Positions 3,605-51,115 of a DNA stretch of 51,463 nt are shown here, piece by piece; within the stretch, counting starts at the first letter, position 1, and the number at the start of each line of letters is the position of its first letter. Source of the DNA: Candidatus Desulfofervidus auxilii. Lineage in GTDB: Bacteria; Desulfobacterota; Desulfofervidia; Desulfofervidales; Desulfofervidaceae. The notes below the pieces were generated by a model. That model searched no databases and was not told the DNA's origin. It saw only the letters and a list, made by a program, of their open reading frames with translations. Location: positions 612,193 through 663,655 of the forward strand of contig NZ_CP013015.1 of NCBI RefSeq assembly GCF_001577525.1. The letters are read 5' to 3'. Made by a program: the position numbers and the translations under genes.

Positions 3605-3735
3605 TGTTGTCAACCCCAAAATCCGCGATTGATTTTTGGATACCTGTCTGCCGACAGGCAGGCCTGTCTGCCCCTGCCCGACGGCAGGCGGGGACAGGCA
3701 GAGCGGTGAACGCTTACAAAAATGCAATGCAATAT
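3605..3735. repeat. dispersed GC-rich palindromic repeat, copy 1
   Basis: An AT-rich word (AAAATCCGCGATTGATTTTT, 3617-3636) is followed by the palindrome CCTGTCTGCCGACAGGCAGG (3643-3662) and a longer GC-rich hairpin whose arms pair near 3663-3670 and 3692-3700. The same components recur at 21349, 30914, 34670, 49405 and 50730 in either orientation. The base composition is much richer in G+C than the surroundings. Confidence 0.8.
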
Positions 3736-3830: not shown

Positions 3831-4415
3831 GTGGCCTTTTCCTATAACCCCACTCATGTTGCAAAGGTAAAAACCATTGAGGGTTACAAATGGCACCCCA
3901 AAGAAAAACACTGGAGTTTTCCATACTCAGATGGGGTTATCGATAGAATTCTATCCATCTTTAAAGGCGAAAAAATCGAGCTTGATCCTACCCTGCAAGT
4001 TACCAAGAAGAGTCTGAAAACAGAACTCAATTTTGAAGACTTGAGGAGAGAACTCACCTTAGCCGCCCTGGAAATGTTGAGAGAGTATTGGAAAAAGTTT
4101 GGACCTTCCTCTAAGTGGTTATTTCCGGGTGATAGGTCAAATCAACACCTTCATTCTAGAAGTGTCCAGAAGATTTTTACCAATGCCTGCAAGAAAGCAG
4201 GAATAACAAAGGAGGTCTCGGTTCTCTCTTTGAGGCACAGCTTTGCTACGCATCTATTGGAAAGCGGAGTCGATCTCCGATATATCCAGGAAATTCTGGG
4301 TCACAAAAGCAGTAAAACAACCGAGATTTATACCCATGTCTCGACCAAAAACCTTTCAGCTATTAGAAGTCCTTTAGATAGCATCTTAGATCAAAAGGGA
4401 GGTGGTGCTCTATGA
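3831..4415 (+). pseudogene. tyrosine recombinase/integrase remnant with internal deletion
   Basis: The 194-residue frame joins the two ends of a tyrosine recombinase. The N-terminal part contains Y-N-P-x-H-V and [11 protein letters not shown], an extra domain seen in some thermophile integrases. Homology in the same frame extends upstream of the ATG ([11 protein letters not shown]). The C-terminal part has [22 protein letters not shown] and the nucleophile context I-Y-T-H-V. Missing are the core-binding domain and the first catalytic Arg; the junction is near [10 protein letters not shown] (about residue 80). The His of the HxxR box reads Leu. About half of a normal length near 390 residues is absent, so the protein should be catalytically dead. 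A second, shorter relic lies at 34785-34960. Confidence 0.85.
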
Positions 4416-4569: not shown

Positions 4570-6837
4570 ATGAGTTTAGAGGATAGTATTAGTAAATTCA
4601 ATAAAAAGGTCCGAGAAGGACTCTATAATGAGGCGTTTGATGTTTTCTGGAGTGACCTTGGTAATTTACTCAGAGCAGAAGGACGCTTCAAGGAGTATCT
4701 CGATTTTATCAGGTGTCTTTTCCCTAATGGAGAATTTATTGCTCCTGTTCTGAAGGAACGAAATATAGGATGGGCTCATCTGATTTTAGGTATGGCATAT
4801 TATGAAAATGGTTTTCCCGAAATTGCACTAAAACACATCGGGTTAGCTAGGGGCCGAGATTGGAATTTAACTGAATGTTTAAGTATCGAAGGGGCAGGCA
4901 TGCTAATACAAGGGCAGTGTCAGATCCTTCTCGGAGATCTTCCGAAAGCAGAAGAAATACTGAAAACTGTTGCTGAGAAGGACATATATGCTTCTGGTCA
5001 CAGAATCACTGCTAATCTATTACTTAGCCATGTTGCCCTGTTGTCGGGCAACCAATCAGAAGCAAGACGCCGAATATCGATCAGTAAGGAAATTCTACAG
5101 TCTAATGAGAAACTGAGCGGGTTTTCAAAGGATGTGATTTGGCGTGAGACATTCTTGGAAAGGTGCCTTGGGAATTATGAAAGAGCTATCCATCTCGCTA
5201 CTACTTTAATCAACTATGGGAATATCATATCGAAGTTTAAAGGGCACTTAGTTCTTGCTGCAGCTTATCGAAGCTTAAATGAGCTATCAAAAGCTGAATA
5301 TAATTTACAGAAAGCCAAAGAAACCTTGGATAGAAATGATAAATCCCATCGCCTTGCCAACTTACTGCTTGAACGGTCAAAACTGGAAATCAAGAAACAA
5401 AACCATGCCGAAGCTGAAAGACTGGCCTATAAAGCACTTGAAATCGGAAGAAGAGGAAGGCTTCTCCCCATTACAATGGAAGCTTGCATACTCCTAGCAG
5501 AAGCGGAGAGTTTTCTTGAGCAGTGGAGTTCTGCTGCCAATCATCTATCTTGTGCCGAGGATTTGAGCAATCAGCATAATAATAGTCTGACTTTTGCCAG
5601 CCTCCTCAAACGCCTTGAAGTAGTAAAGAAAAAAGTTAATGCCAACATTCAATCACCTGAAATCAATCTGATTGAGAATCAACGCCCCATTCATTTCAAA
5701 AAAGCTACAAATCTCAATCTGAGAGCCTGGGATGTTTTTATATCGCATGCAAGCGAAGATAAACGTGAAGTGGCTGACCCACTCTTCAAAGCTCTAACCG
5801 ATAGAGGGTTAAACGTTTGGTATGATACAGTCTCTCTAAAAATTGGTGATCGCCTTTTAGAAAAAATAGATGAAGGGCTAGCTCACTCCTCTTTTGGAGT
5901 TGTAATATTGTCCAAGAACTTTTTTCAAAAGAAATGGACAAAATTAGAGATTGACGGGCTTGTTGCGACTGAAGGCAAGCGAGGTTCGAAGATCTTACCT
6001 GTATGGCACGGGGTTTCAGAGGATGATGTCAAGAATTTTTCTCCTATTCTTGCAGGGCGCGTAGCAGGGAATACAGAATCGGGCATTGAGAAATTGGCCG
6101 ATAGGTTATACGAAGTCATTCGTGGATCTCATGAACAGGATATTGGTATAGCACCATTCGCATGTATAATATTTGACGAGCACTGGGAGCTTGTTGGAGG
6201 ATCTGTTTCCCTTCTTGGATTCGTTTCAGAGGTGAGATATAACATAAAAAAGGGGGTAAAGCCAATATGTAAAATAGTTTGCAGGGGTCTGTCTTCCGCC
6301 CGTACTCAAGTTAGCAAGTTGGAAAGATCCCCAGAAAGATCTCCTGCTAACAGAGTTCGCCACGTTGCTCTACTTAAATGGATAGACAGATATAGTAAGG
6401 CAGAAAACAACTTACGGGAAGGGATTAAGATGATTCTAACACATCCTGCGCTTGCGAAAGCTGGATGTTTGGAAGAAGACTCTGAAATGGCACAATGTTT
6501 ACTTAGTTTTATACGATTGTATCAAGGCGAAGAGATAGCTCCAAAAGATGCATCAACGTCCTTCGATCTATTTCGCATGCGTCCCCCAACACTTCATACG
6601 AGGGTCAGGTTAACTGAAGAGGAAACTGAATATCTTAAACGGGTAGCGGGTGTAGATAATATTTTCTATCTCACTAGCCCATGGGAGTTAACTGCGATGG
6701 ATCTTCCTCTCGAGGTCATGAGAACACAGGCCATCCCTAAGATTGTGTATGAGGTTCAAGGGTATTGTCTTAAGACAGGCGACAAGAAATTGGATGAGTT
6801 ACTAGACCTTTCTTCATGGTCCTGTGGACTTGCATAG
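4570..6837 (+). CDS. TPR-TIR protein with uncharacterised C-terminal domain (candidate defence NADase)
   Basis: The 755-residue protein has three parts. Residues 1-370 are tetratricopeptide-like helical repeats (for example the segments around residues 75-105 and 225-300). Residues 387-510 are a TIR domain, beginning W-D-V-F-I-S-H-A-S-E-D-K, with S-K-N-F-F-x-K-K-W-x-K-L-E. Glu460 sits where the NAD-hydrolysing Glu of bacterial TIR enzymes is found. Residues 520-755 match nothing I recognise. Bacterial TIR proteins with repeat domains commonly act in abortive phage defence by depleting or converting NAD. That role is inference here, supported by the island context (integrase relic upstream, mobile modules downstream). 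The start is an ATG with a weak purine stretch (TAGGTG) upstream. Its G+C content looks a little higher than that of the following ATPase gene. Confidence 0.85.
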   Translation: MSLEDSISKFNKKVREGLYNEAFDVFWSDLGNLLRAEGRFKEYLDFIRCLFPNGEFIAPVLKERNIGWAHLILGMAYYENGFPEIALKHIGLARGRDWNLTECLSIEGAGMLIQGQCQILLGDLPKAEEILKTVAEKDIYASGHRITANLLLSHVALLSGNQSEARRRISISKEILQSNEKLSGFSKDVIWRETFLERCLGNYERAIHLATTLINYGNIISKFKGHLVLAAAYRSLNELSKAEYNLQKAKETLDRNDKSHRLANLLLERSKLEIKKQNHAEAERLAYKALEIGRRGRLLPITMEACILLAEAESFLEQWSSAANHLSCAEDLSNQHNNSLTFASLLKRLEVVKKKVNANIQSPEINLIENQRPIHFKKATNLNLRAWDVFISHASEDKREVADPLFKALTDRGLNVWYDTVSLKIGDRLLEKIDEGLAHSSFGVVILSKNFFQKKWTKLEIDGLVATEGKRGSKILPVWHGVSEDDVKNFSPILAGRVAGNTESGIEKLADRLYEVIRGSHEQDIGIAPFACIIFDEHWELVGGSVSLLGFVSEVRYNIKKGVKPICKIVCRGLSSARTQVSKLERSPERSPANRVRHVALLKWIDRYSKAENNLREGIKMILTHPALAKAGCLEEDSEMAQCLLSFIRLYQGEEIAPKDASTSFDLFRMRPPTLHTRVRLTEEETEYLKRVAGVDNIFYLTSPWELTAMDLPLEVMRTQAIPKIVYEVQGYCLKTGDKKLDELLDLSSWSCGLA

Positions 6838-6950
6838 TTCCTTTGTAAGTCTCTGATGGAAAGTGAATGCGAGGCTTGCATCTAAGACTGTGTTTTTGGC
6901 AATAATGAGTACATAGTGTTCTGAAAAAGAGGAAGGGGACGCAACTTCAT
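6838..6950. other. short spacer between the TIR gene and the hairpin-bounded modules
   Basis: No gene or clear terminator is visible. The stretch leads into the first inverted-repeat boundary at 6951. Confidence 0.4.
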
Positions 6951-7263
6951 ATAACAGCGGATAAAAGGGAAATCAAAGATTTCCCCAAATCCCGCCCTCT
7001 ATGCTTTTATGTATTATGTATATGTTTTGAAGAATAAAAGAATGAACCGGCTCTATATTGGCTATACTGAAGACCTAAACAGAAGATTGAATGAACATAA
7101 GAAAAAGGACGACAGTGTAGAGTTAGTCTGCTACGAAGCTTATACTTATGAAAACCAGGCACGTGCAAGAGAGAGAAAATTGAAACTATATGGTAGTGCT
7201 TGGCGAGGATTAAAGAAAAGGTTAGGATTATAGTGCTTAGAGGGCGGGACTTCTTTTATCCGC
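6951..7263. mobile_element. module A: GIY-YIG ORF inside a palindrome
   Basis: The left end reads AACAGCGGATAAAAG (6953-6967), followed by a small hairpin GGGAAATC/GATTTCCC (6967-6985) and CCCGCCCTCT (6991-7000). The right end is the inverse: AGAGGGCGGG (7239-7248) and CTTTTATCCGC (7253-7263). The GIY-YIG ORF fills the interior. An unloaded version with the same left end (39 bp identical) and the same right end, but only about 17 bp of unrelated sequence between them, lies at 38726-38793. This loaded/unloaded comparison defines the module. Its outer bases (ATATAAC on the left, GTTATAC at 7269) resemble attC R'' and R' boxes. Confidence 0.75.
7009..7233 (+). CDS. small GIY-YIG domain endonuclease-like protein
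   Basis: The 74-residue product is a bare GIY-YIG domain: Y-Y-V-Y-V-L-K at the N-terminus, L-Y-I-G-Y-T at about residues 19-24, R-R-L-N-E-H (about 29-34) and a C-terminal E-N-Q-A-R-A-R-E-R-K-L-K segment that holds the expected metal-binding Glu. Members are stand-alone minimal nucleases, and many sit in repeat-rich or mobile settings. No good ribosome binding site precedes the ATG. The ORF lies within the arms of an inverted repeat, with the stop codon about 6 bp from the right arm. It may be the mobility function of the surrounding module, or a passenger. The domain call is strong; the role is inferred. Confidence 0.85.
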   Translation: MYYVYVLKNKRMNRLYIGYTEDLNRRLNEHKKKDDSVELVCYEAYTYENQARARERKLKLYGSAWRGLKKRLGL

Positions 7264-7298
7264 ATTCCGTTATACGCCATTGCTAACAAGGTGGTAAG

Positions 7299-7532
7299 AT
7301 GAAAGTGTTTGCATATGTAGTAGGTGCATCAAATAATCCCGACGCTGTAGAATGTATGGTTCCGTACAAAGTTAACAAGGATATAATCTTCTTTGGACCT
7401 TGTAAAAAATCTTTAAGAGAGAAATTGTATAAAGAGTATTTGAAAAATTCTAATAATGGGGAAGCAAATGTGCTTGACGATATTTATGTGTTGGGTGTAA
7501 ACGCATCTAACCTAACTCAAAAAAAAAATTAG
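7299..7532 (+). CDS. hypothetical protein, N-terminal part of a frameshifted gene
   Basis: This frame encodes 77 residues from an ATG preceded by AAGGTGG. It ends just after a run of ten A residues (7519-7528). If the run had nine A's, translation would continue as ...Q-K-K-I-R-K-I-I-W-V-G-R-I-V-K-V-L-T-F-E-R-A-Y-N-V and join the 7621-8115 frame without a stop, giving about 272 residues. The beta-rich opening K-V-F-A-Y-V-V-G-A-S vaguely recalls Nmad-type (nucleotide-modification-associated) proteins, but I cannot confirm that. The break may be a real mutation, a slippery site or a sequencing error. The gene is the only content of the inverted-repeat module around it. Confidence 0.6.
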   Translation: MKVFAYVVGASNNPDAVECMVPYKVNKDIIFFGPCKKSLREKLYKEYLKNSNNGEANVLDDIYVLGVNASNLTQKKN

Positions 7533-7620
7533 AAAAATCATTTGGGTTGGTAGAATAGTTAAAGTTCTTACTTTTGAAAGGGCGTATAATGTCTTATCGT
7601 CAAAAAAGGAATTTAAAAAA

Positions 7621-8115
7621 ATGATAGAAGAGGAAGATTCTCCATTGCATTTAGAACCCATTTACAAGGGTGGAACTTTTGTCGGATATAAACTGCGGTC
7701 TAAAGAGCATGAAAATAATAGCGAGTGGGTTATGGATGTCACAAAAAATGAGACTGACCCTGATGTAGAGTTAGAAGGGAAGAAATTACTTTTGAAAGAC
7801 CCTTCTAAGCGAAAAGAGATCTTTATCCGAGACTGTGTTTTTTTGTGCGAAAATATATTCTTTGCCGAAGGAAAAGGGATAGATATTGATGAGGACATTC
7901 TTTCTATATTTAAAAAGGCTCAGCCAAAAAGAGATGGTGTAAGTAATTATGCCATTTTTGGTTTAAATAGTGATGGGCGAGCGAATGGACTTAAAGGAAA
8001 TTATCTTACGATTGATGATAGAAGCTTAGCAAGTGCTTTAATTGAGAAGATAACCAAGACCCGGAGTACATTTTCTCATAGTAAGGGTATTAAGCGTCGG
8101 GGTAAATGTAGATGA
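7621..8115 (+). CDS. hypothetical protein, C-terminal part of the frameshifted gene
   Basis: This is the downstream part of the gene that starts at 7299. The same frame is open from about 7525, so the ATG at 7621 is probably internal. It contains a charged region, E-E-E-D-S-P-L-H-L-E-P-I-Y-K-G-G, and a conserved-looking segment L-L-K-D-P-S-K-R-K-E-I-F-I-R-D-C-V-F-L-C-E. After that comes a low-complexity basic C-terminus (K-G-I-K-R-R-G-K-C-R). I do not recognise a family with confidence, and no signal peptide or membrane segment is seen. Whether a full protein is made depends on the A-run upstream. Confidence 0.6.
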   Translation: MIEEEDSPLHLEPIYKGGTFVGYKLRSKEHENNSEWVMDVTKNETDPDVELEGKKLLLKDPSKRKEIFIRDCVFLCENIFFAEGKGIDIDEDILSIFKKAQPKRDGVSNYAIFGLNSDGRANGLKGNYLTIDDRSLASALIEKITKTRSTFSHSKGIKRRGKCR

Positions 8116-8146
8116 ATATTAAGTTCAACGCAACGGCGTATACCAA

Positions 8147-8221
8147 GCGAGTATCTGGCTACGGTGCTTCGCACCTTCGCCCCAATTCCCTCGCTTCGCT
8201 CGGGAACTTCAGATACCCGCC
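8147..8221. repeat. module C: empty palindrome with internal hairpins
   Basis: Left arm GCGAGTATCTGG (8147-8158) and right arm CAGATACCCGC (8210-8220) pair with one mismatch. Inside are the hairpins GGTGCTTCGCACC and CCCTCGCTTCGCTCGGG. A related copy with similar arms lies at 11031-11100. The sequence is far richer in G+C than its surroundings. A short open frame over it (8112-8297) appears to be repeat sequence, not a gene. Confidence 0.7.
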
Positions 8222-8224
8222 AAC

Positions 8225-8389
8225 CGTCAGGCTGTGTAAAAAGTCAAAAAGTCTAATTAAGGGTCGCAAAAAGTGGGAGAAAGAGGTAAAATACTGATAA
8301 AAAGTGGCTTAGTAAACCCAATTTGTAATCAAATAATGTGGAATAGTGGGAAGGTAAAATTTTAAAAATACTTATCACACAATCTGCCG
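8225..8389. repeat. module E, copy 1: repeated segment bounded by inverted repeats
   Basis: The ends CGTCAGGCTGTGT (8225-8237) and ACACAATCTGCCG (8377-8389) are inverse to each other at 10 of 13 positions. The AT-rich interior contains several GTGGGA-type words and no gene. A copy with very high identity starts at 38798 in the second island. The right end is followed by GTTAGGCG, an attC R'-type core. About 125 bp of the interior is nearly unchanged between the copies. Confidence 0.8.
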
Positions 8390-8416
8390 TTAGGCGAAAT
8401 TCGCCCGCAGGAATAG

Positions 8417-9331
8417 GTGGAAAAGATGACGCAAAAAGAATACATAGAAAATATAAAAAATCGACAACTTAACTCAGATAAGGAGTTTATATTAGATTCT
8501 TTAACAGGGGCAATAGATAGATTACAAAAAGCATTCCCACGATACGGAAGTTTTTTAATGGAGTTTGTACAAAACGCTGATGATGCAAAAAGTGAGACTT
8601 TAACAATAGAGATATTGGAAGATACAGTAAAAATAACTAATAATGGAAATCCGTTTTCTGAAGAAGATGTAAAAAGTATTTGTAAGGTTGGGCGTTCTTC
8701 CAAAACACCGAAGGACTATATTGGATATTTGGGGGTTGGATTTAAAGCAGTCTTTTTCATATCTGAATGTCCACAAATATATTCCGGTGGCTATCAGTTT
8801 AAATTTGATAAAAGCGCATGGGAGGATCCGGAACATACTCCTTGGCAAATAATCCCTCTTTGGGTTGATACTCCAACTGTTGATATAGACAACAACAAAA
8901 CAAATTTCATTTTACCTATAAAAACCCATGACCTATTGGTAAAACTTAGGGAAGAAGTAAAGCCTGAACATTTGAACAATAGAATATTACTTTTCTTAAG
9001 AAATATAAAAGAGATTGAGATAAAAGATGCAAATCAACATTTAACAAGGAGATTTACGAAATCCGAGGTTTCTAAGACATCTGACTACGAAATTTATCAA
9101 ATTCAAGAATATGAAAACGAAACCCTTAAAACTCAAGATCACTGGTTAATCTTTCGAACTATTTGTAATGTACCTCCTGATGTGAAAAATGATTATGTAA
9201 CTAAAGAATGGGAAAGAGAAATCGTAGAGAAAAGAGAGGTATTAGTAGCCTTCAAATTAGATGATGAGAATAACCTTATAAAAGAAAAAAAAGCACTGCT
9301 CATATTGGAGTTTTTAGTTTCTTACCATTAA
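8417..9331 (+). CDS. sacsin-like HATPase protein, N-terminal part (frameshifted gene)
   Basis: The 304-residue frame carries a GHKL ATPase domain of the sacsin/Hsp90-like type. It has the N-box F-V-Q-N-A-D-D-A (about 50-57), I-T-N-N-G-N-P-F (about 74-81) and the glycine loop G-Y-L-G-V-G-F-K-A-V-F (about 102-112). Near 9290 the frame leaves the protein homology: the +1-shifted frame continues H-I-G-V-F-S-F-L-P-L-K-E-I-P-S-G-L, as expected of the family. The shift falls at a run of eight A's (about 9284-9291); nine would restore one frame of roughly 845 residues through to 10962. The likely start is GTG at 8417, or ATG at 8426. Such ATPases with a C-terminal DUF3883 occur in defence islands; a defence role is inference. 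Confidence 0.8.
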   Translation: MEKMTQKEYIENIKNRQLNSDKEFILDSLTGAIDRLQKAFPRYGSFLMEFVQNADDAKSETLTIEILEDTVKITNNGNPFSEEDVKSICKVGRSSKTPKDYIGYLGVGFKAVFFISECPQIYSGGYQFKFDKSAWEDPEHTPWQIIPLWVDTPTVDIDNNKTNFILPIKTHDLLVKLREEVKPEHLNNRILLFLRNIKEIEIKDANQHLTRRFTKSEVSKTSDYEIYQIQEYENETLKTQDHWLIFRTICNVPPDVKNDYVTKEWEREIVEKREVLVAFKLDDENNLIKEKKALLILEFLVSYH

Positions 9332-9375
9332 AAGAAATACCAAGTGGCTTAAATTTTCTTTTACAAGCTGATTTA

Positions 9376-10962
9376 TTGACATCACCAGGGAGAGGCGAAC
9401 TTGCCCGAGAATGTTTATGGAATAATTGGCTCGCAGATGAGATGTATAATCTGATCGTTAAAAAATGTATACCCGCGTTCTTAAACCATAATAAGTGGAA
9501 AATGACATTAACAGAAATTTTATATTCTTCAGAAGGTGGCCACGAGTTGTTTGAAGAACACATAAAAGAACCCTTGAATGAGTATCTTGAAAATAACCCA
9601 GTCTTGATTGATGAGAATGGCATACCATCAAAAGCCGAAGAACTTATCTCGGTGACTGAAGAAATGAGAAGACTTCTAAGCGATGACGATCTAAAATTAC
9701 TATATCCAGATAAAAAAATAATCCATAGCGAATGTAAACTCCATTTCAACATAAAAATAAAGAAAGCTCCTGAAGACATTTATAGATTTATCACGTCTTC
9801 AGAAAGCGAAGAATTCATAAAACAAAAAGCAAAAAACAAAGATATTGAGTGGTTTAAAAAACTTTATTCTATGTTTGTGGAGAAATATACCCATACATAT
9901 TTTTATAATCATTATCCTCGCTATAATGTGGAACACGATGATTTTTGGAATAGAATGCGTGATCTACCCAGACCAATTATGTTAACAGAAGACTATAAAG
10001 TAGCGAAGATAAACGATTGTTTTACTAATCCTAAAAAAATCAGAATCCCTGAGCAATTAAAAGATAAGTTTAGGATAGTACATCAGCAGATAGCAGCAGA
10101 TGAAAAGTTTGAGGAGTTTAGAAAAAAATTAAATGAAGAAAGGTATTATTATACTGTACCCAATACAAAAGTCCTCAGGGAATTAACCGAAGAAGATATT
10201 AAAAACGCTCTAAAACAGCAGGAAACTCTTGAACTAGATGAAAAAAAATGGGGAAAACTGCAAGAAGAAGAGAAAATTGAAAAAATAAAGGAAATCAAAA
10301 AACTGTGGGATGATTATTCTATAGAAATTGAAAACTATGACTTTATAACACTAAAAAGTAAAAGTGGAAAATGGGTAAAACCAGATTCTCTTATTTTCCC
10401 AAAAGAATACAACCCAGAGCATAATATCGAAATTCTCGCAAACAAAGGTTTAGTTGACATTCCCATGGAATTTGTAAGTTCAGAATTCATTATAAACTGT
10501 AGCGAGAATGAAATCAGGAGATGGCTAAAATTTTTTGAAGAGCTAGGAGTAGATAAAGCTTTAGAAAGTGAAAAGAAAGGCGGTCGCAAGGAAAAAATTG
10601 TACAAAGAATTGGCATATTGGCAGTTTTGAAATGCGAGAAAGAAGATGGAAGAACTGCCCGAGAATTAGGTGAATCCGAAAAACGGGGATATGATATTGA
10701 ATCAATGTCAGAAAACGAGGAAAGATATATTGAGGTGAAAAGTACCAGCGACACTTCTTATGACATCTTTCTTACTATAAATGAGTTTAAAGCTCTTCGA
10801 GATAAAAAAGAAAAATATTTTATTTATGTGGTCTTGGATGCTCTTAGAAAACCAACTGTACATATCACCCAAGGCGACAAACTTCTCGAAATTGAAGATA
10901 CAAAAGTGATTATTCCCTTTAGCAAATGGAGAGATCTAACAGATGAAGAATTTCAACCATAA
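9376..10962 (+). CDS. sacsin-like protein, C-terminal part with DUF3883 nuclease-like domain
   Basis: This frame is the continuation of the ATPase that starts at 8417; it is open from about 9295, so the TTG at 9376 is not a true start. The middle is charged and helical. The last 130 residues form a DUF3883 domain: E-S-E-K-R-G-Y-D-I-E-S followed by E-E-R-Y-I-E-V-K-S-T-S (about residues 432-460) and a hydrophobic strand Y-F-I-Y-V-V-L. The D-I and E-V-K residues match the PD-(D/E)XK nuclease core. Joined, the protein would couple an ATPase sensor to a nuclease-like domain. If the frameshift is genuine, this half is probably not translated alone. Confidence 0.8.
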   Translation: MTSPGRGELARECLWNNWLADEMYNLIVKKCIPAFLNHNKWKMTLTEILYSSEGGHELFEEHIKEPLNEYLENNPVLIDENGIPSKAEELISVTEEMRRLLSDDDLKLLYPDKKIIHSECKLHFNIKIKKAPEDIYRFITSSESEEFIKQKAKNKDIEWFKKLYSMFVEKYTHTYFYNHYPRYNVEHDDFWNRMRDLPRPIMLTEDYKVAKINDCFTNPKKIRIPEQLKDKFRIVHQQIAADEKFEEFRKKLNEERYYYTVPNTKVLRELTEEDIKNALKQQETLELDEKKWGKLQEEEKIEKIKEIKKLWDDYSIEIENYDFITLKSKSGKWVKPDSLIFPKEYNPEHNIEILANKGLVDIPMEFVSSEFIINCSENEIRRWLKFFEELGVDKALESEKKGGRKEKIVQRIGILAVLKCEKEDGRTARELGESEKRGYDIESMSENEERYIEVKSTSDTSYDIFLTINEFKALRDKKEKYFIYVVLDALRKPTVHITQGDKLLEIEDTKVIIPFSKWRDLTDEEFQP

Positions 10963-11264
10963 TTATTTATTTCCTGCGGGCGAACTCTCCGCTCCCTTCG
11001 GTCGCTCGTCCCTATCGGGAGTGTATAACAGGTGCGTATCCGGCTTCGCTATCGCTCCGTTCAAATTCCTCACTTCCCTCGCAAACTTCACATACCCGCC
11101 AAACCGTTACCGCTTAAGTGTTTTTTCACTTTTTAGGTAAGTGGGTGTTGAGGGGTTTCTTTCAGAGCAATCACGGTTCTGAGACAACTAGGAGTTTTGA
11201 GGAATATAAAACTGATTACATAATGGCAACACAGTTAACATTTGATAATTTTTTGCCAAACAAA
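10963..11264. repeat. structured gene-free stretch with module F palindrome
   Basis: After the right arm of module D there is a hairpin-rich GC stretch (CTCCGCTCCC pairing loosely with ATCGGGAG, 10987-11021). Next comes an attC-like palindrome (11031-11100): arms TGCGTATCCGG and CACATACCCGCC, flanked by GTATAAC on the left and CCGTTAC on the right. It is homologous to module C at 8147-8221. The remaining 160 bp to the helicase gene holds nothing I recognise. Confidence 0.6.
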
Positions 11265-21271: not shown

Positions 21272-21348
21272 AGGAGAAAAGAGCTAGAACAGGGATACGG
21301 CAAAGTAGTTTAATTAGAATAGATAAAGAGGTAATTTTTGTAGCACAA

Positions 21349-21368
21349 CCTGTCTGCCGACAGGCAGG
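21349..21368. repeat. dispersed palindrome, copy 2
   Basis: CCTGTCTGCCGACAGGCAGG, identical to the copies at 3643 and 50730. It lies between the SH3-domain and cytochrome genes. Confidence 0.8.
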
Positions 21369-21399
21369 AAGGTTTTTTAAATAAAAAAGATAATTAAAT

Positions 21400-34249: not shown

Positions 34250-34450
34250 GGGGTCAAACTTACAAAATACAGTTAAGAAAATAGAAAACGGAAAACAGAA
34301 ATTCCCAGTTCCCATTTCCCAATTTCCAATTCCCATTTCCAACGTGCCAACGTTCTAACGTGCAAACGTGTAAACGTGCTAACGTTCCAATTTAACAGAA
34401 GGCGATTTTGCATTTTTCAATTCGCATTCTGCATTGTGCCATTGCGCTTA
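34250..34450. repeat. long dispersed repeat with iterated AACGTG words
   Basis: About 200 bp, present in inverted orientation as two partial copies at 50720-50900 and 51010-51110. The middle holds iterations of an 8-10 bp word (AACGTGC/T plus two or three bases, at about 34339-34390), and the left part holds iterations of TTCCCAATTCCC-like words. No gene fits. Confidence 0.7.
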
Positions 34451-34784: not shown

Positions 34785-34960
34785 TTATCTACAGATTTTA
34801 ATGATCATGATAACTGCTTTCCCACACACCTACTTGAAAGTGGGACAGATTTAAGGTATATTCAAGAGCTACTGGGGCATAAAAGCTCTAAAACAACTGA
34901 GATTTACACCCATGTGCGTGAGCAGGACATTGGCGGATTAAGAGTCCATTGGACACCATA
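34785..34960 (+). pseudogene. second integrase relic (C-terminal tail of a tyrosine recombinase)
   Basis: The frame [33 protein letters not shown] matches the C-terminus of the integrase remnant at 3831-4415 almost residue for residue. It stops at a TAG near 34960. The segment just before it (34785-34828) matches the segment just before the first remnant (3738-3776) at most positions and is in the same reading frame. Thus the two ends of the gene were joined by a larger deletion than in the first relic. Confidence 0.8.
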
Positions 34961-35597: not shown

Positions 35598-38500
35598 ATG
35601 GGTGAAATGCTACATCTTGAAGATGTGATGAAGGATTCTCGTAAAGGGTGGCCAACTTTCGATGATTTGCAAAAGAAAGAAGTTCTCCTTGACGAAAAAC
35701 TTATTAAAAAAGTTGAGGGCCTACTGCAAAGCAACCGGCGCTGCCTTATTAGAGGTGCCGAAGGGAGAGGCAAGACAGTTTTAGCAAGAGTTATAGGTTC
35801 TAATAAGTTCAAAAAAAATTGGAAAGTATATTTTATTGATATCCGCGAACTCAGGAAAGAAGATATTAATAGTATATGCCGTCAGATTGAAGCACTTGGA
35901 GAACAGAAAACTTTATTTATTATAGAAAATGCTCATGCCTCTTTAGATGAAATAACCCCCAAACTTATAGAGCTTGCAAATAATTGTCAAAAGCCTTCTT
36001 TTATCTTTACCTTAAGAAAGATATTCCCTGGGAAGGAATCACTTCTTATAATAAATCCTTTTGAGGAGTATGAAGAAAAAGGATGGTATGTAGATTTAAG
36101 TCCGGATTTAGGAATGATGCTAGGAATTATCACAACATTTATTTCAGCGAGAAATATACCTTATTCTCTTACGGAAGAAGATAAATCTTGGATAAAAAGA
36201 GAATTTGGGGAACAAAAGGCAAATTTGCGTAGGTTCAGATGGTATCTTGAGACATGGAGTGAAATAGGCGGTCCTCTTCATTCTGTACCCAAAGAGAAGG
36301 TTTTAGAGAGAGTGTTAAAGCAATTCCTCATCAGAGAGTTTAATACTGAGCTTCAAAAAATGCTAATCAAAATTTCAGCAGTATTCCAATTTGATGTAAG
36401 TTTCCATGGGGAGAATTTTGAGAAAAATATTCTAACAGAGCTTACTGAAAGGGGCGTCATAACATTCTTACCAGGAAATTATTATAGAATGCAACACTCT
36501 TCAGACGCAGCTTATGTCATAGAAGCTGAAGCAATTCTAAGGGAAACAAAGGAGCCTGAGGTTCTTACCGCTGATATTTTAAAACAGTACCTGCAAAAGA
36601 AACCTGTCAATTTTCTTGAATTAATGGGTGGTATATATCGCAATAAACAAAAGCTTATCTTGTCTCAAATCTTTAAAGACCAAGAAACGTATAACACCAT
36701 TTTTGGTATGATTAAGCAAGATGGTATCAGAGCTGTAAGTTCTGTCCTTCGTTATATAACTTGGGCCTGTGGCAAAGAAAAAGGATTAGAGTTTTGGTCT
36801 CAGTATAAGAAATTATGGGGCGATTCTCCAAAGGAACAAGGAGAAAAACTTAAAGAGAAACTAACTGGAGCATCTCTTATTGAAGTTGAGTTCCTACTTT
36901 TATTTTTAAGCAGAGTCGATGCTAATGAAAAAGATTGGTTAGCAACCGAGGCATTAGATGAGGATGTTTTAGTTAAAAAGGCAAAAGAGGCCTCATTTTC
37001 AATTATTCCAAATTTAATCAGATTATTACCTCACGAGAAAGCTTCACGGGTCATTTCTAAACTCAACCCAAACGATGTAGCGGAAAAGGCAAAAGCCGCT
37101 ACCGCCCAAAGGATAATGTGGTTTTTGAAGTACTGCTTACAAGATCCCTTCAGCATAAATTTTGTAAAATCATTTTTAATAATTCTTCATAAAGATGGCA
37201 AGCTAATAGAGAAGCTCAAAAATTCAGAGCTAAGTGTAATATTAAATTGCCTAGGTATTATTAAAAATATAGATCCTGAGGTATACAAAGACATCAAAGA
37301 TAATATTTCGCCACATTGGTTGCAAATATGGCTTTCTTCAAGTCTGAGTAGAGTTGCCAACCGACTTTATAGGTATCGTTGGTGTGTTGGAGAGCCAAAA
37401 AGATTTGCACAATCAGTAGTAAATAGTTTAGCTTCAAAACCACTTGGTGAACCAATTAAGAGGTTATATAGCCAACCTGAAACAAAGCCTCTTAAAGTCT
37501 TGGGCAAGTTATTAAATTCAGCTTATCAGGTTGCCTTTGAAGATGAAAAACATGCAGTGGAAAGGATCGCACAACAAATAGTAGATAATCTCAATTTAGA
37601 GATGCAACAAAGGTATACTATTGAGCAACTTTCCTTATTACTAAACAATGTTAAAATGTGTAGTGAAGAAACATGGCGTCAGCTGTGTAGTAGAATTCTA
37701 TCAGAATTAGACTTAGTTGATTATATAGGTATCCCCTTTGATAAAGGATTGGCCGCGCTTATGTGGAATATCTATCAATATAGCGAGGAAAAGGGGCAGG
37801 AATTAGCTGATGAGATATTCAAGTTAGATTTCAATAGACTTTTGGATAACTCAGAGACTGAAGCAATAAGTAGACTCCTTTGGAATCTGCTTCAGATTAA
37901 TAATTTAAAAGTTAAAAACTGGATTGAGAATATAGATAACGAAAAATGGCTTTCAAAAGCTCTATTATCTTCAAGACGTGATGCTTTTCGGCTTTTATGG
38001 AGCTTATGTCATGCCGATGAAGAAAAAGGAAAGGCAATAACACGTTCTCTTGCGAATAAAATATTGCCTACCTTTACGGCATTAAAGGTCGAAGACTTGC
38101 CTCTTCTTGGTTTTTTTATATTTTGCGGTATTTCGTTTAACTTAAACGTATCCTCCCTTTCGCCTTATGAAATTGCAGAAAAGTTTAGCGAGGAATTAAG
38201 CTTAAGTGAGCTGGCCTTTTGTATTTACTTGCTTAAGGAGAAAAATAATAAGATAATAAAAGAATTTTTAAAAGAGTTAAGCAGATTCTTATTTATAAGA
38301 TTTCCCACATTTTCAATACAAGAAATTATAGAAAAGTATCCGTTTGATATTACAAAGAATTTGCTTAAGGAAATCCTCAGGGATTTCGACCTCCCAAAAG
38401 AGCCAGATTCAACTTTTGCTGAAATGGTTTCTTTGACCAAAGTTTATTTAAAAGAGAGGGGCAAAACGAAGATAGCTTTTAGTCAATTAAAAGATTTCTT

Positions 38501-38696
38501 TCTCAAGAACCCTCCTGATGGCTCTATTTTTAAATCTGCAGATGACTCTACTAAGTGGCTTAGTATAGCTATAGAATATGGAATTTATCTTACAGAGCAA
38601 GTTCCCCATTATAAAAATCCATCTTGGATAGTAACATTATTATCTCTTAATAAGGATAGTAGTTTTGTTTCATCTTTCTGGGAAAATGAGGTATAA
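35598..38696 (+). CDS. 1032-residue P-loop (STAND-like) NTPase with long helical-repeat region
   Basis: The N-terminal region has Walker A G-A-E-G-R-G-K-T (residues 53-60) and a Walker B-like strand L-F-I-I-E-N-A-H (106-113), with Glu110 where many STAND proteins have Asp. A sensor-like strand follows, F-I-F-T-L-R-K (about 134-140). Residues 240-310 look like a winged-helix segment. Residues 350-1000 are almost wholly helical and include repeated units, for example F-R-L-L-W-S-L-C and L-L-W-N-L-L. The architecture recalls signal-transducing NTPases in which helical repeats sense a ligand. It pairs with the membrane protein gene upstream. No known defence family is recognised. Codon use is AT-rich, like the neighbours. 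Confidence 0.7.
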   Translation: MGEMLHLEDVMKDSRKGWPTFDDLQKKEVLLDEKLIKKVEGLLQSNRRCLIRGAEGRGKTVLARVIGSNKFKKNWKVYFIDIRELRKEDINSICRQIEALGEQKTLFIIENAHASLDEITPKLIELANNCQKPSFIFTLRKIFPGKESLLIINPFEEYEEKGWYVDLSPDLGMMLGIITTFISARNIPYSLTEEDKSWIKREFGEQKANLRRFRWYLETWSEIGGPLHSVPKEKVLERVLKQFLIREFNTELQKMLIKISAVFQFDVSFHGENFEKNILTELTERGVITFLPGNYYRMQHSSDAAYVIEAEAILRETKEPEVLTADILKQYLQKKPVNFLELMGGIYRNKQKLILSQIFKDQETYNTIFGMIKQDGIRAVSSVLRYITWACGKEKGLEFWSQYKKLWGDSPKEQGEKLKEKLTGASLIEVEFLLLFLSRVDANEKDWLATEALDEDVLVKKAKEASFSIIPNLIRLLPHEKASRVISKLNPNDVAEKAKAATAQRIMWFLKYCLQDPFSINFVKSFLIILHKDGKLIEKLKNSELSVILNCLGIIKNIDPEVYKDIKDNISPHWLQIWLSSSLSRVANRLYRYRWCVGEPKRFAQSVVNSLASKPLGEPIKRLYSQPETKPLKVLGKLLNSAYQVAFEDEKHAVERIAQQIVDNLNLEMQQRYTIEQLSLLLNNVKMCSEETWRQLCSRILSELDLVDYIGIPFDKGLAALMWNIYQYSEEKGQELADEIFKLDFNRLLDNSETEAISRLLWNLLQINNLKVKNWIENIDNEKWLSKALLSSRRDAFRLLWSLCHADEEKGKAITRSLANKILPTFTALKVEDLPLLGFFIFCGISFNLNVSSLSPYEIAEKFSEELSLSELAFCIYLLKEKNNKIIKEFLKELSRFLFIRFPTFSIQEIIEKYPFDITKNLLKEILRDFDLPKEPDSTFAEMVSLTKVYLKERGKTKIAFSQLKDFFLKNPPDGSIFKSADDSTKWLSIAIEYGIYLTEQVPHYKNPSWIVTLLSLNKDSSFVSSFWENEV

Positions 38697-38725
38697 GATA
38701 ATCATTACCAAGCAAAACATTTGCC

Positions 38726-38793
38726 TAACAGCGGATAAAAGGGAAATCAAAGATTTCCCCAAATTACCCTATCGGGCAACTTCTTTTATCCGC
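38726..38793. repeat. module A': unloaded palindrome
   Basis: The left arm starts AACAGCGGATAAAAG and is identical over 39 bp (38727-38765) to 6952-6990. The right arm is CTTTTATCCGC (38783-38793). Only about 17 bp separate the shared parts, whereas the other copy carries a GIY-YIG ORF there. The bases before it, GCCTAAC (38723-38729), match the attC R'' consensus. Confidence 0.75.
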
Positions 38794-38797
38794 AATA

Positions 38798-38955
38798 CGT
38801 CAGATTGTGTAAAAAGTCAAAAAATTTGATTAAGTGTCGCAAAAAGTGGGAGAAAGAGGTAAAATACTGATAAAAAGTGGTTTAGTAAACCCAATTTGTA
38901 ATCAAATAATGTGGAATAGTGGGAAAATAAAAATTCAAAATTAGTTATCATCTAT
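38798..38955. repeat. module E, copy 2
   Basis: Starts CGTCAGATTGTGT (38798-38810) and continues with very high identity to 8238-8360. The right end is degraded: TTATCATCTATG where copy 1 has TTATCACACAATCTG. It follows module A' with 4 bp between, whereas copy 1 follows modules A, B and C. Confidence 0.8.
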
Positions 38956-50719: not shown

Positions 50720-51115
50720 TTAAGCGCACCTGTCTGCCGACAGGCAGGATGGCTCAATGCAGAATGCAAATTGAAAAATGCAAAATCGCCTTCTGTTAAA
50801 TTGGAACGTTAGCACGTTTGCACGTTAGAACGTTGGCACGTTAGAATTGGGAATTAGGAACTGGGAATTGGGAATTTCTATTTTCTGTTTCCCGTTTCCC
50901 TTTCCTTCCTTATGCACGTTTATGAAGTTGTAAGTTAGAAAGTTTGCAAGTTAAAAAGTTGCAAGTTAGAAAGTTATAAGTTGTTTTTCAAAGACTTAAG
51001 GTATTTAATAAAGCCGTTAGCACGTTTACACGTTAGAATTGGGAAATGGGAACTGGGAATTTCTGTTTTCCGTTTTCTATTTTCTTAACTGTATTTTGTA
51101 GGTTTGAACTTTCCA
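50720..51115. repeat. gene-free repeat region: two partial inverted copies of the 34250 repeat
   Basis: After the palindrome CCTGTCTGCCGACAGGCAGG (50730-50749) the region matches, in reverse, 34290-34450 (here about 50750-50900) and 34250-34335 (here about 51015-51105). Iterated words of two types are seen: ACGTTAGCACGTT (about 50807-50845 and 51017-51035) and AAGTTGTAAGTTAGAAAG-like words (about 50925-50980). It ends just before the IS110 fragment. Confidence 0.7.

Follow-up and report, generated by a model that had tools for sequence, protein, structure and literature searches.

Organization of the Loaded and Empty Hairpins

The sequence analyzed here, referred to as the window, is a 51,463-nucleotide stretch of the genome of Candidatus Desulfofervidus auxilii. 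It contains gene cassettes in two islands, headed by an internally deleted tyrosine recombinase gene and by a recombinase remnant, and two copies of a hairpin-forming palindrome, one of which (the loaded copy) carries a small open reading frame for a GIY-YIG nuclease and the other of which is empty. The principal features are as follows.

3831–4412, + strand: tyrosine recombinase gene with an internal deletion, opening the first cassette island (Pfam PF00589, tblastn, NCBIfam)
4570–6837, + strand: TPR-TIR protein gene, defense-like cassette cargo directly upstream of the loaded hairpin (Pfam TIR_2 8e-20, PADLOC)
6949–6955, + strand: R''-like box ATATAAC on the outer left side of the hairpin, departing from the attC consensus RYYYAAC at the third base (consensus of 51 sites)
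6952–6990, + strand: loaded palindrome, left arm, with the same sequence as 38726–38764 (repeat search, fold, consensus)
6957–6967, + strand: stem GCGGATAAAAG within the left arm (fold and consensus)
inside 6952–6990, + strand: first inner hairpin GGGAAATC-AAA-GATTTCCC (fold and consensus)
6991–7248, + strand: inserted element of 258 nt, found where the empty copy has a 14-nt apical hairpin (the two copies compared; locus L141 against 100+ empty sites)
6991–7004, + strand: left terminal inverted repeat CCCGCCCTCTATGC; the same or a similar repeat surrounds relatives in other hosts (L210, L240, L243)
7009–7233, + strand: GIY-YIG nuclease ORF, 74 aa (Pfam, alignment, dN/dS against L141)
7235–7248, + strand: right terminal inverted repeat GCTTAGAGGGCGGG, with 13 of its 14 positions complementary to the left repeat (sequence, fold)
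7249–7263, + strand: right arm ACTTCTTTTATCCGC (sequence, fold)
7269–7275, + strand: R'-like box GTTATAC, departing from the attC consensus GTTRRRY at the fifth base (GTTA-N-R-Y in 51 sites)
34815–34943, + strand: another recombinase remnant, with 72% identity across 43 aa, opening the island whose end is the empty palindrome
35598–38696, + strand: large STAND-type NTPase gene, cassette cargo directly upstream of the empty hairpin (Pfam nSTAND below cut-off)
38723–38805, + strand: empty hairpin copy, whole (sequence, repeat search, fold)
38723–38729, + strand: R''-like box GCCTAAC of the empty copy (sequence)
38726–38764 and 38779–38793, + strand: arms of the empty copy, with the apical hairpin at 38765–38778 (sequence, fold)
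38799–38805, + strand: degenerate R' box GTCAGAT of the empty copy (sequence)

By direct reading and by a repeat search of the window, the left arms of the two copies are identical at 39 of 39 nt (6952–6990 and 38726–38764), and the right arms, ACTTCTTTTATCCGC, match exactly (7249–7263 and 38779–38793). Both matches had been recognized in the initial annotation, which placed the second left arm one base too far along, at 38727–38765, and estimated about 17 bp between the arms of the empty copy, where the actual distance is 14 nt (38765–38778). The arms of the loaded copy are 258 nt apart (6991–7248), separated, as had been described, by the 74-residue GIY-YIG ORF (7009–7233), which is accompanied in the insert by its own 14-nt inverted repeat, CCCGCCCTCTATGC...GCTTAGAGGGCGGG. 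Comparison of 6991–7248 with 38765–38778 and with 100+ empty sites elsewhere indicates that the ORF interrupts a site that is otherwise found uninterrupted. Folded as single-stranded DNA, the loaded and empty forms both give the same three-branched stem, and in the minimum-free-energy fold of the loaded form one branch continues into an added 12-bp stem whose loop holds the ORF. Two additional empty copies are present in the source genome, near 57,368 and 2,485,884, one of them degenerate at its right end. The window offers a natural pair of loaded and empty sites, with junctions defined at the level of single bases, for a nuclease element that is complete within just 258 nt.

The GIY-YIG Protein and Its Conservation

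The product of the ORF matches the Pfam GIY-YIG domain with E = 6.5e-12, and an alignment shows that the catalytic positions Y5, Y16, G18, R26, H30, and E55 are conserved in the window copy. A sequence profile search matches the UPF0213 structures 1zg2 and 1ywl, and the AlphaFold prediction from the single sequence, whose mean pLDDT of 69 is too low to base a fold search on, has GIY-YIG-like strands and helices. The domain occupies residues 1–59 (Pfam) of a protein of only 74 aa, in which a separate DNA-binding domain is absent. Two other identities for the ORF were considered and rejected: a RAYT/REP enzyme, because all of its Pfam matches are to GIY-YIG-type domains and none to an HUH Y1 transposase (IS200/IS605 type), and a group I or II intron ORF, because no Rfam family is found at 6950–7280.

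A second intact loaded copy is present at L141, a WOR-3 contig, with the same junctions as in the window, AAAT^CCCGCCCTCTATGC...GCTTAGAGGGCGGG^ACTTC, and a decayed loaded copy at L161, an Omnitrophica contig, retains the C-terminal part of the ORF, with a stop, and the right junction. The recurrence of exactly these junctions in another phylum, together with the decayed copy, upholds the earlier proposal that the comparison of loaded and empty palindromes defines the insertion. The left arm and the inverted repeat are almost unchanged between the window and L141, whereas the ORF DNA is only 79% identical and the proteins are 80% identical; the corresponding dS is about 1.5, dN is 0.105, and dN/dS is 0.07, and the GIY-YIG ORF is under purifying selection. 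It should be noted that the nearly invariant R26 is replaced by K in the L141 protein, and the nuclease activity of that protein is therefore uncertain. At L058 and L087, a CCCAGCCCTCTA/TAGAGGGCTGG pair surrounds a short filler without an ORF. The nearest empty apical forms are TCCCGACAAGTCGGGA and its variants, at five sites, and fit a simple replacement of the loop. Because only two intact loaded copies and one that is clearly decayed are found among more than 110 attC-like sites, mostly on metagenome contigs, the lineage of loaded sites is rare.

The Host Palindrome as an attC-like Hairpin

A search of other genomes for the arms, as suggested in the initial annotation, was carried out with the left-arm pattern AACAGCRGATAAAAGGRAAATCA against 84,980 species genomes and returned 114 stretches, of which 50 are archaeal, 63 bacterial, and one unassigned, with an interior that is almost always empty. 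The commonest form of the palindrome among them is 64 nt long, AACAGCGGATAAAAGGGAAATCAAAGATTTCCCCAAATTGCCTTCGGCAACTTCTTTTATCCGC, and folds into a stem with two hairpin branches, the apical branch being variable with compensatory changes. With respect to the structural characteristics of attC sites, the palindrome folds on one strand, its L boxes are paired, and its terminal structure is variable with covariation. Outside the stem, 51 sites give a consensus of RYMYAAC for the left box and GTTA-N-R-Y for the right, each departing at one position from the integron R'' (RYYYAAC) and R' (GTTRRRY) sequences. The interior loop is five-against-one, and in the folds GCGGATAAAAG and CTTTTATCCGC pair without bulges, so that extrahelical L-box bases were not found.

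In 85 of 89 cases the upstream ORF lies on the same strand as the palindrome, most with a stop codon within about 100 nt, and arrays of at least two copies occur in 23 fetched loci as well as in the window. The outer left and right triplets match in 9 of 51 sites, as compared with 5.3 expected and a maximum of 12 in 1000 shuffles. Matched NNN triplets had been considered as proof of a fixed element, which these numbers do not support; the near independence of the flanks instead fits a recombination that joins the right half to a new neighbor. The palindrome thus behaves like an integron-type attC hairpin in its position 3' of genes and on their strand, its occurrence in arrays, and its nearly independent flanks. 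Nevertheless, two defining properties of attC sites, extrahelical bases and a nearby IntI domain, are lacking, and because the integron-integrase matches lie outside the IntI-specific region, the palindrome is best described as the attC-like cassette-end hairpin of an integron-like system and not as a proven attC. This also bears on the suggestion in the initial annotation that the palindrome is the carrier of the nuclease: it is a very common cassette-end hairpin, normally empty, that lacks the nuclease in more than 100 places, and the mobile unit appears to be not the whole palindrome but the smaller combination of the ORF with its own inverted repeat, CCCGCCCTCTATGC/GCTTAGAGGGCGGG. A close GIY-YIG homolog is absent, at E 1e-6, from 17 of 20 palindrome-bearing genomes. 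A scan of IMG/VR with the left arm gave no match, and the matches there to the junction pattern had neither an inverted-repeat partner nor a GIY-YIG homolog.

Recombinases and Cassette Cargo

The recombinase encoded at 3831–4412 lacks about 170 aa that are present in full-length relatives (tblastn) and belongs to a family that is also found beside the palindrome elsewhere; related recombinases occur in 13 of 114 short loci, in 12 of the 13 on the strand of the palindrome. The family, represented by the remnants in the window and by L108, L099, and L066, is one of proteins of about 355 aa with an N-terminal FPYNPSFIEKIKTI region, and it recurs beside attC-like palindromes. Recombinases of this type match TIGR02249 only over approximately residues 2–179 and 233–315, and the additional patch III domain of IntI is absent from them; a canonical IntI integron beside the palindromes of the window was rejected for this reason. 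The source genome encodes one true integron integrase, at 2,238,312–2,239,256 (TIGR02249, 498 bits), and a crude search of about 18 kb around it found no attC-like hairpins of this kind.

The cargo of 4570–10962 and 35598–38696 looks defense-related, comprising the TPR-TIR protein, a split sacsin/TmtA-like ATPase, and the STAND NTPase. The adjacent short ORFs at 7299–7532 and 7621–8115 look like one frameshifted gene. Two attC-like hairpins of another type (TATAAC...GTATCCGGC...CATACCCGCCAAACCGTTA) are present in the same island, at 8130–8230 and 11020–11110, and a 176-nt direct repeat (88%), at 8202–8377 and 38775–38950, directly follows two hairpins that differ from each other, one of them the empty palindrome.

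Relatives in Other Hairpins and in RNA Genes

Homologs of the GIY-YIG protein were drawn from relatives of the source genome, from the WOR-3 phylum, and from the phyla of the Omnitrophica and Nealsonbacteria genomes, and inverted repeats were sought in their flanks within 80 nt with a cut-off score of 11 or more. Such a repeat flanks 35 of 50 homologs from Omnitrophota and Patescibacteria but only 1 of 170 control ORFs of 60–130 aa from the same loci; the ORF and the repeat are thus associated. Despite the differing surroundings, the repeats mostly start with CCC(C/A)GC..C, and the sharing of this CCC(M)GC-type start by different hosts indicates that the inverted repeat belongs to the element. 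The proteins closest to that of the window (L210, L240, L242, and L243) have the repeat type CCC[AC]GCCC in common but are in different hosts; L242 appears, from its flanks, to sit between nusG-like and rplK-like sequence. In a poorly resolved tree of 76 proteins, host type follows the branching, changing 23 times as compared with 46 in shuffles, none of 200 being as low, with taxonomy as a partial confounder.

Several of the hosts are genes for structured RNAs. Rfam matches place the GIY-YIG ORF inside 16S rRNA genes (L244, L265, and L268), inside 23S rRNA genes (L245, L252, and L253), and inside RNase P RNA genes of the WOR-3 phylum (L173 and L182), where the RNA model spans the insert; at L174, L177, L181, L247, and L248, it adjoins or overlaps part of an RNase P RNA gene. 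At L173 and L182 and, in Patescibacteria, at L247, L248, and L259, all with the ORF inside an RNase P RNA gene or against its edge, the inverted repeats lengthen an RNase P stem. At L021, in the source genome, and at L031, L254, and L257, the ORF has a partial tRNA gene on one side and an intact one on the other; the ORF of L021 (203352–206552 of the source genome), at 1492–1764 of that locus, is the second short GIY-YIG ORF of the genome, and the genes on its two sides are a 5' tRNA-Asn fragment and an intact tRNA-Asn gene.

A further 11 homologs, in the phylum of the window, are flanked by sequences that were classed by eye as CGTC-like REPs, for example GTCATTCCCGCGAAGGCGGGAATCCAG. GIY-YIG ORFs framed by palindromes that look to be of the CGTC type are seen at L030, L033, L035, L036, L037, L039, L040, and L041. 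For one REP, GTCATTCCNGCGAANGCNGGAATCCA, a genome can hold as many as 155 copies when a single mismatch is allowed, as against none for a reversed-pattern control. The suggestion in the initial annotation that a minimal GIY-YIG nuclease travels inside palindromic repeats is consequently borne out in that the junctions recur and relatives occupy different hairpins, a range that is broader than the one proposed.

Comparison with Known Systems

The Ssn nucleases of Neisseria and other bacteria are single-domain GIY-YIG proteins of similar size that act site-specifically on single-stranded DNA and are linked to an interspersed repeat. They differ from the present system in that the host here is an attC-like cassette hairpin, with the ORF nested in its tip together with its own inverted repeat. 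A comparison can also be drawn with group IIC-attC introns and IS1111-attC elements, mobile elements that target attC sites, except that these encode a reverse transcriptase or a transposase, whereas the window element encodes only 74 aa.

Integrons are known in archaea (PMC9668308), and the host palindrome resembles integron attC sites in being a hairpin, with outer boxes close to RYYYAAC/GTTRRRY, that follows each cassette gene on the same strand, in arrays, in Bacteria and Archaea; it differs in its five-against-one interior loop, in the lack of obvious extrahelical bases, and in nearby recombinases that do not have the IntI-specific domain. REP/RAYT systems likewise consist of short interspersed palindromes that frame an endonuclease gene, and CGTC REPs, which are reported to have no dedicated transposase (PMC3733652), resemble the CGTC-like palindromes that host GIY-YIG relatives here. 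However, RAYTs are HUH tyrosine enzymes, whereas the fold in the present case is GIY-YIG, nor is the repeat of the window a REP.

A close precedent is a survey of CPR rRNA genes, the available part of which describes GIY-YIG insertions that are not introns, most insertions being at the tops or bases of stem-loops, and judges GIY-YIG to be outside homing (PMC11270868). The relatives of the window element at L244, L265, L268, L245, L252, and L253 are likewise non-intron insertions with a small GIY-YIG ORF. The survey concerns rRNA only and, in that part, does not mention a terminal inverted repeat (PMC11270868), whereas the host in the window is a DNA palindrome of a cassette array and the repeat recurs with the ORF across hosts. 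In an incomplete search of the literature, neither GIY-YIG elements within attC-like hairpins or within RNase P RNA nor a terminal repeat shared by GIY-YIG elements were found to have been described. In the literature searched, GIY-YIG was not found joined with extragenic palindromes, and GIY-YIG and attC appeared together only in the description of an Aeromonas integron.

A Model for Spread at Hairpin Tips, and Its Alternatives

The probable explanation, in our judgment and by a modest degree, is a two-layer structure in which a GIY-YIG element resides in hairpin tips and spreads in the manner of homing, being cut and copied into loops that are extruded. The outer layer is the attC-like, three-branched DNA hairpin that marks the 3' ends of cassettes and is common to Bacteria and Archaea; the inner layer is the 258-nt element, a GIY-YIG ORF bracketed by 14-nt inverted repeats and located at the apex of one of the branches. 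This element probably belongs to a large family of GIY-YIG micro-elements in the hairpin tips of rRNA, RNase P RNA, the surroundings of tRNA genes, REPs, and other cassette hairpins. Cleavage by the nuclease would take place while the host palindrome is extruded or in single-stranded form, at the apical loop of an empty site or at its junction, and repair templated by a loaded copy would then introduce the ORF and the inverted repeats, as in homing. Since the inverted repeats would only lengthen an existing stem, the fold of the host hairpin would be kept and the insertion tolerated, and preservation of the stem would also account for tolerance inside rRNA or RNase P RNA. The attC-like host may, in addition, ferry the element between cassettes and species. 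The anatomy, the junctions, the recurrence in other phyla, the purifying selection on the ORF, the statistical association of this ORF family with flanking inverted repeats, and the residence inside RNA genes are shown directly; that the nuclease cuts, on which strand it would do so, how the element is copied, and which way it has spread are inferred. The lack of a separate DNA-binding domain, the rarity of loaded attC-like sites, the K at position 26 in L141, and the overlap of host type with taxonomy count against this explanation.

A rather unlikely alternative, although the one that deserves the most attention, is that the ORF entered an attC-like hairpin once and that the cassette recombinase has since moved the loaded cassette between genomes without homing. 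The host hairpin is clearly exchanged across domains, only one protein lineage (the window, L141, and the L161 remnant) is found in it, and the nearly independent outer flanks (9 of 51 matches against 5.3 expected, with a maximum of 12 in 1000 shuffles) are as cassette exchange predicts. However, passive carriage leaves unexplained the presence of the same protein family, with similar inverted repeats, in unrelated hairpin tips and RNA genes. These RNA genes suggest in turn that the element might act as an intervening sequence, the RNA hairpin of the repeat being trimmed from the transcript by the GIY-YIG protein or by RNase III, with mobility of the DNA being incidental. Intervening sequences removed by RNase III are described for rRNA genes in the available part of the CPR survey (PMC11270868). 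The residence of relatives in 16S, 23S, and RNase P RNA genes and the start of the ORF within a few bases of the stem accord with such processing, but the host in the window is a DNA palindrome that resembles a recombination site, has no Rfam match, and is not an RNA gene. To our knowledge, GIY-YIG enzymes of known activity cut DNA, which also counts against trimming of RNA, and we regard it as improbable.

Slightly more improbable still is that the protein is a single-strand DNA nuclease of the Ssn type that targets the surrounding repeat and serves mainly to modulate DNA uptake or repeat-mediated recombination, its residence in the repeat being secondary. A GIY-YIG nuclease is reportedly tied to its own repeat family in Neisseria and its relatives, and some relatives of the window protein reside in REP families of high copy number (as many as 155 copies of GTCATTCCNGCGAANGCNGGAATCCA in one genome). 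However, with no close homolog at E 1e-6 in 17 of the 20 palindrome-bearing genomes, the hairpin is present in many genomes without the nuclease, and therefore the repeat does not need it. Coincidence or an artefact of assembly can be given hardly any credence, since the source genome is one 2.54-Mb contig, the junctions are identical in an unrelated assembly, and dN/dS is 0.07; the occurrence of the same left-arm sequence in 114 other stretches and of an independent loaded copy in WOR-3 is far beyond chance.

A more tentative extension, which is plausible but short of probable, is that these elements represent a broad class of minimal mobile elements, in which one GIY-YIG ORF of about 70–100 aa between short inverted repeats colonizes the hairpin tips of structured loci (integron-like attC sites across domains, REPs, rRNA, RNase P RNA, and tRNA) with the extruded loop as target; the GIY-YIG protein would also be a candidate for the missing mobilizing enzyme of CGTC-type REPs. 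A single rule, insertion at hairpin tips, would then unite the GIY-YIG ORFs of rRNA, RNase P RNA, and tRNA loci with those of palindromes that have no known transposase. Should the protein indeed cut such loops, it would represent a nuclease of compact size that is guided by structure. The cassette-end hairpin is of interest in its own right, being almost unchanged across methane-oxidizing archaea and many bacterial phyla and associated with a recombinase without the IntI hallmark.

Other Repeats in the Window

Long inverted repeats are present at 34254–34442 and 50749–51107, 16 kb apart, with arms of 94–97 nt that are 84–93% identical and contain CGTTAGCACGTTTGCACGTTAGAA-like units. A short interspersed palindrome, ACCTGTCTGCCGACAGGCAGG, occurs in eight copies, for example at 3642–3666, 21348–21372, and 50728–50752, and is unrelated to the GIY-YIG element.
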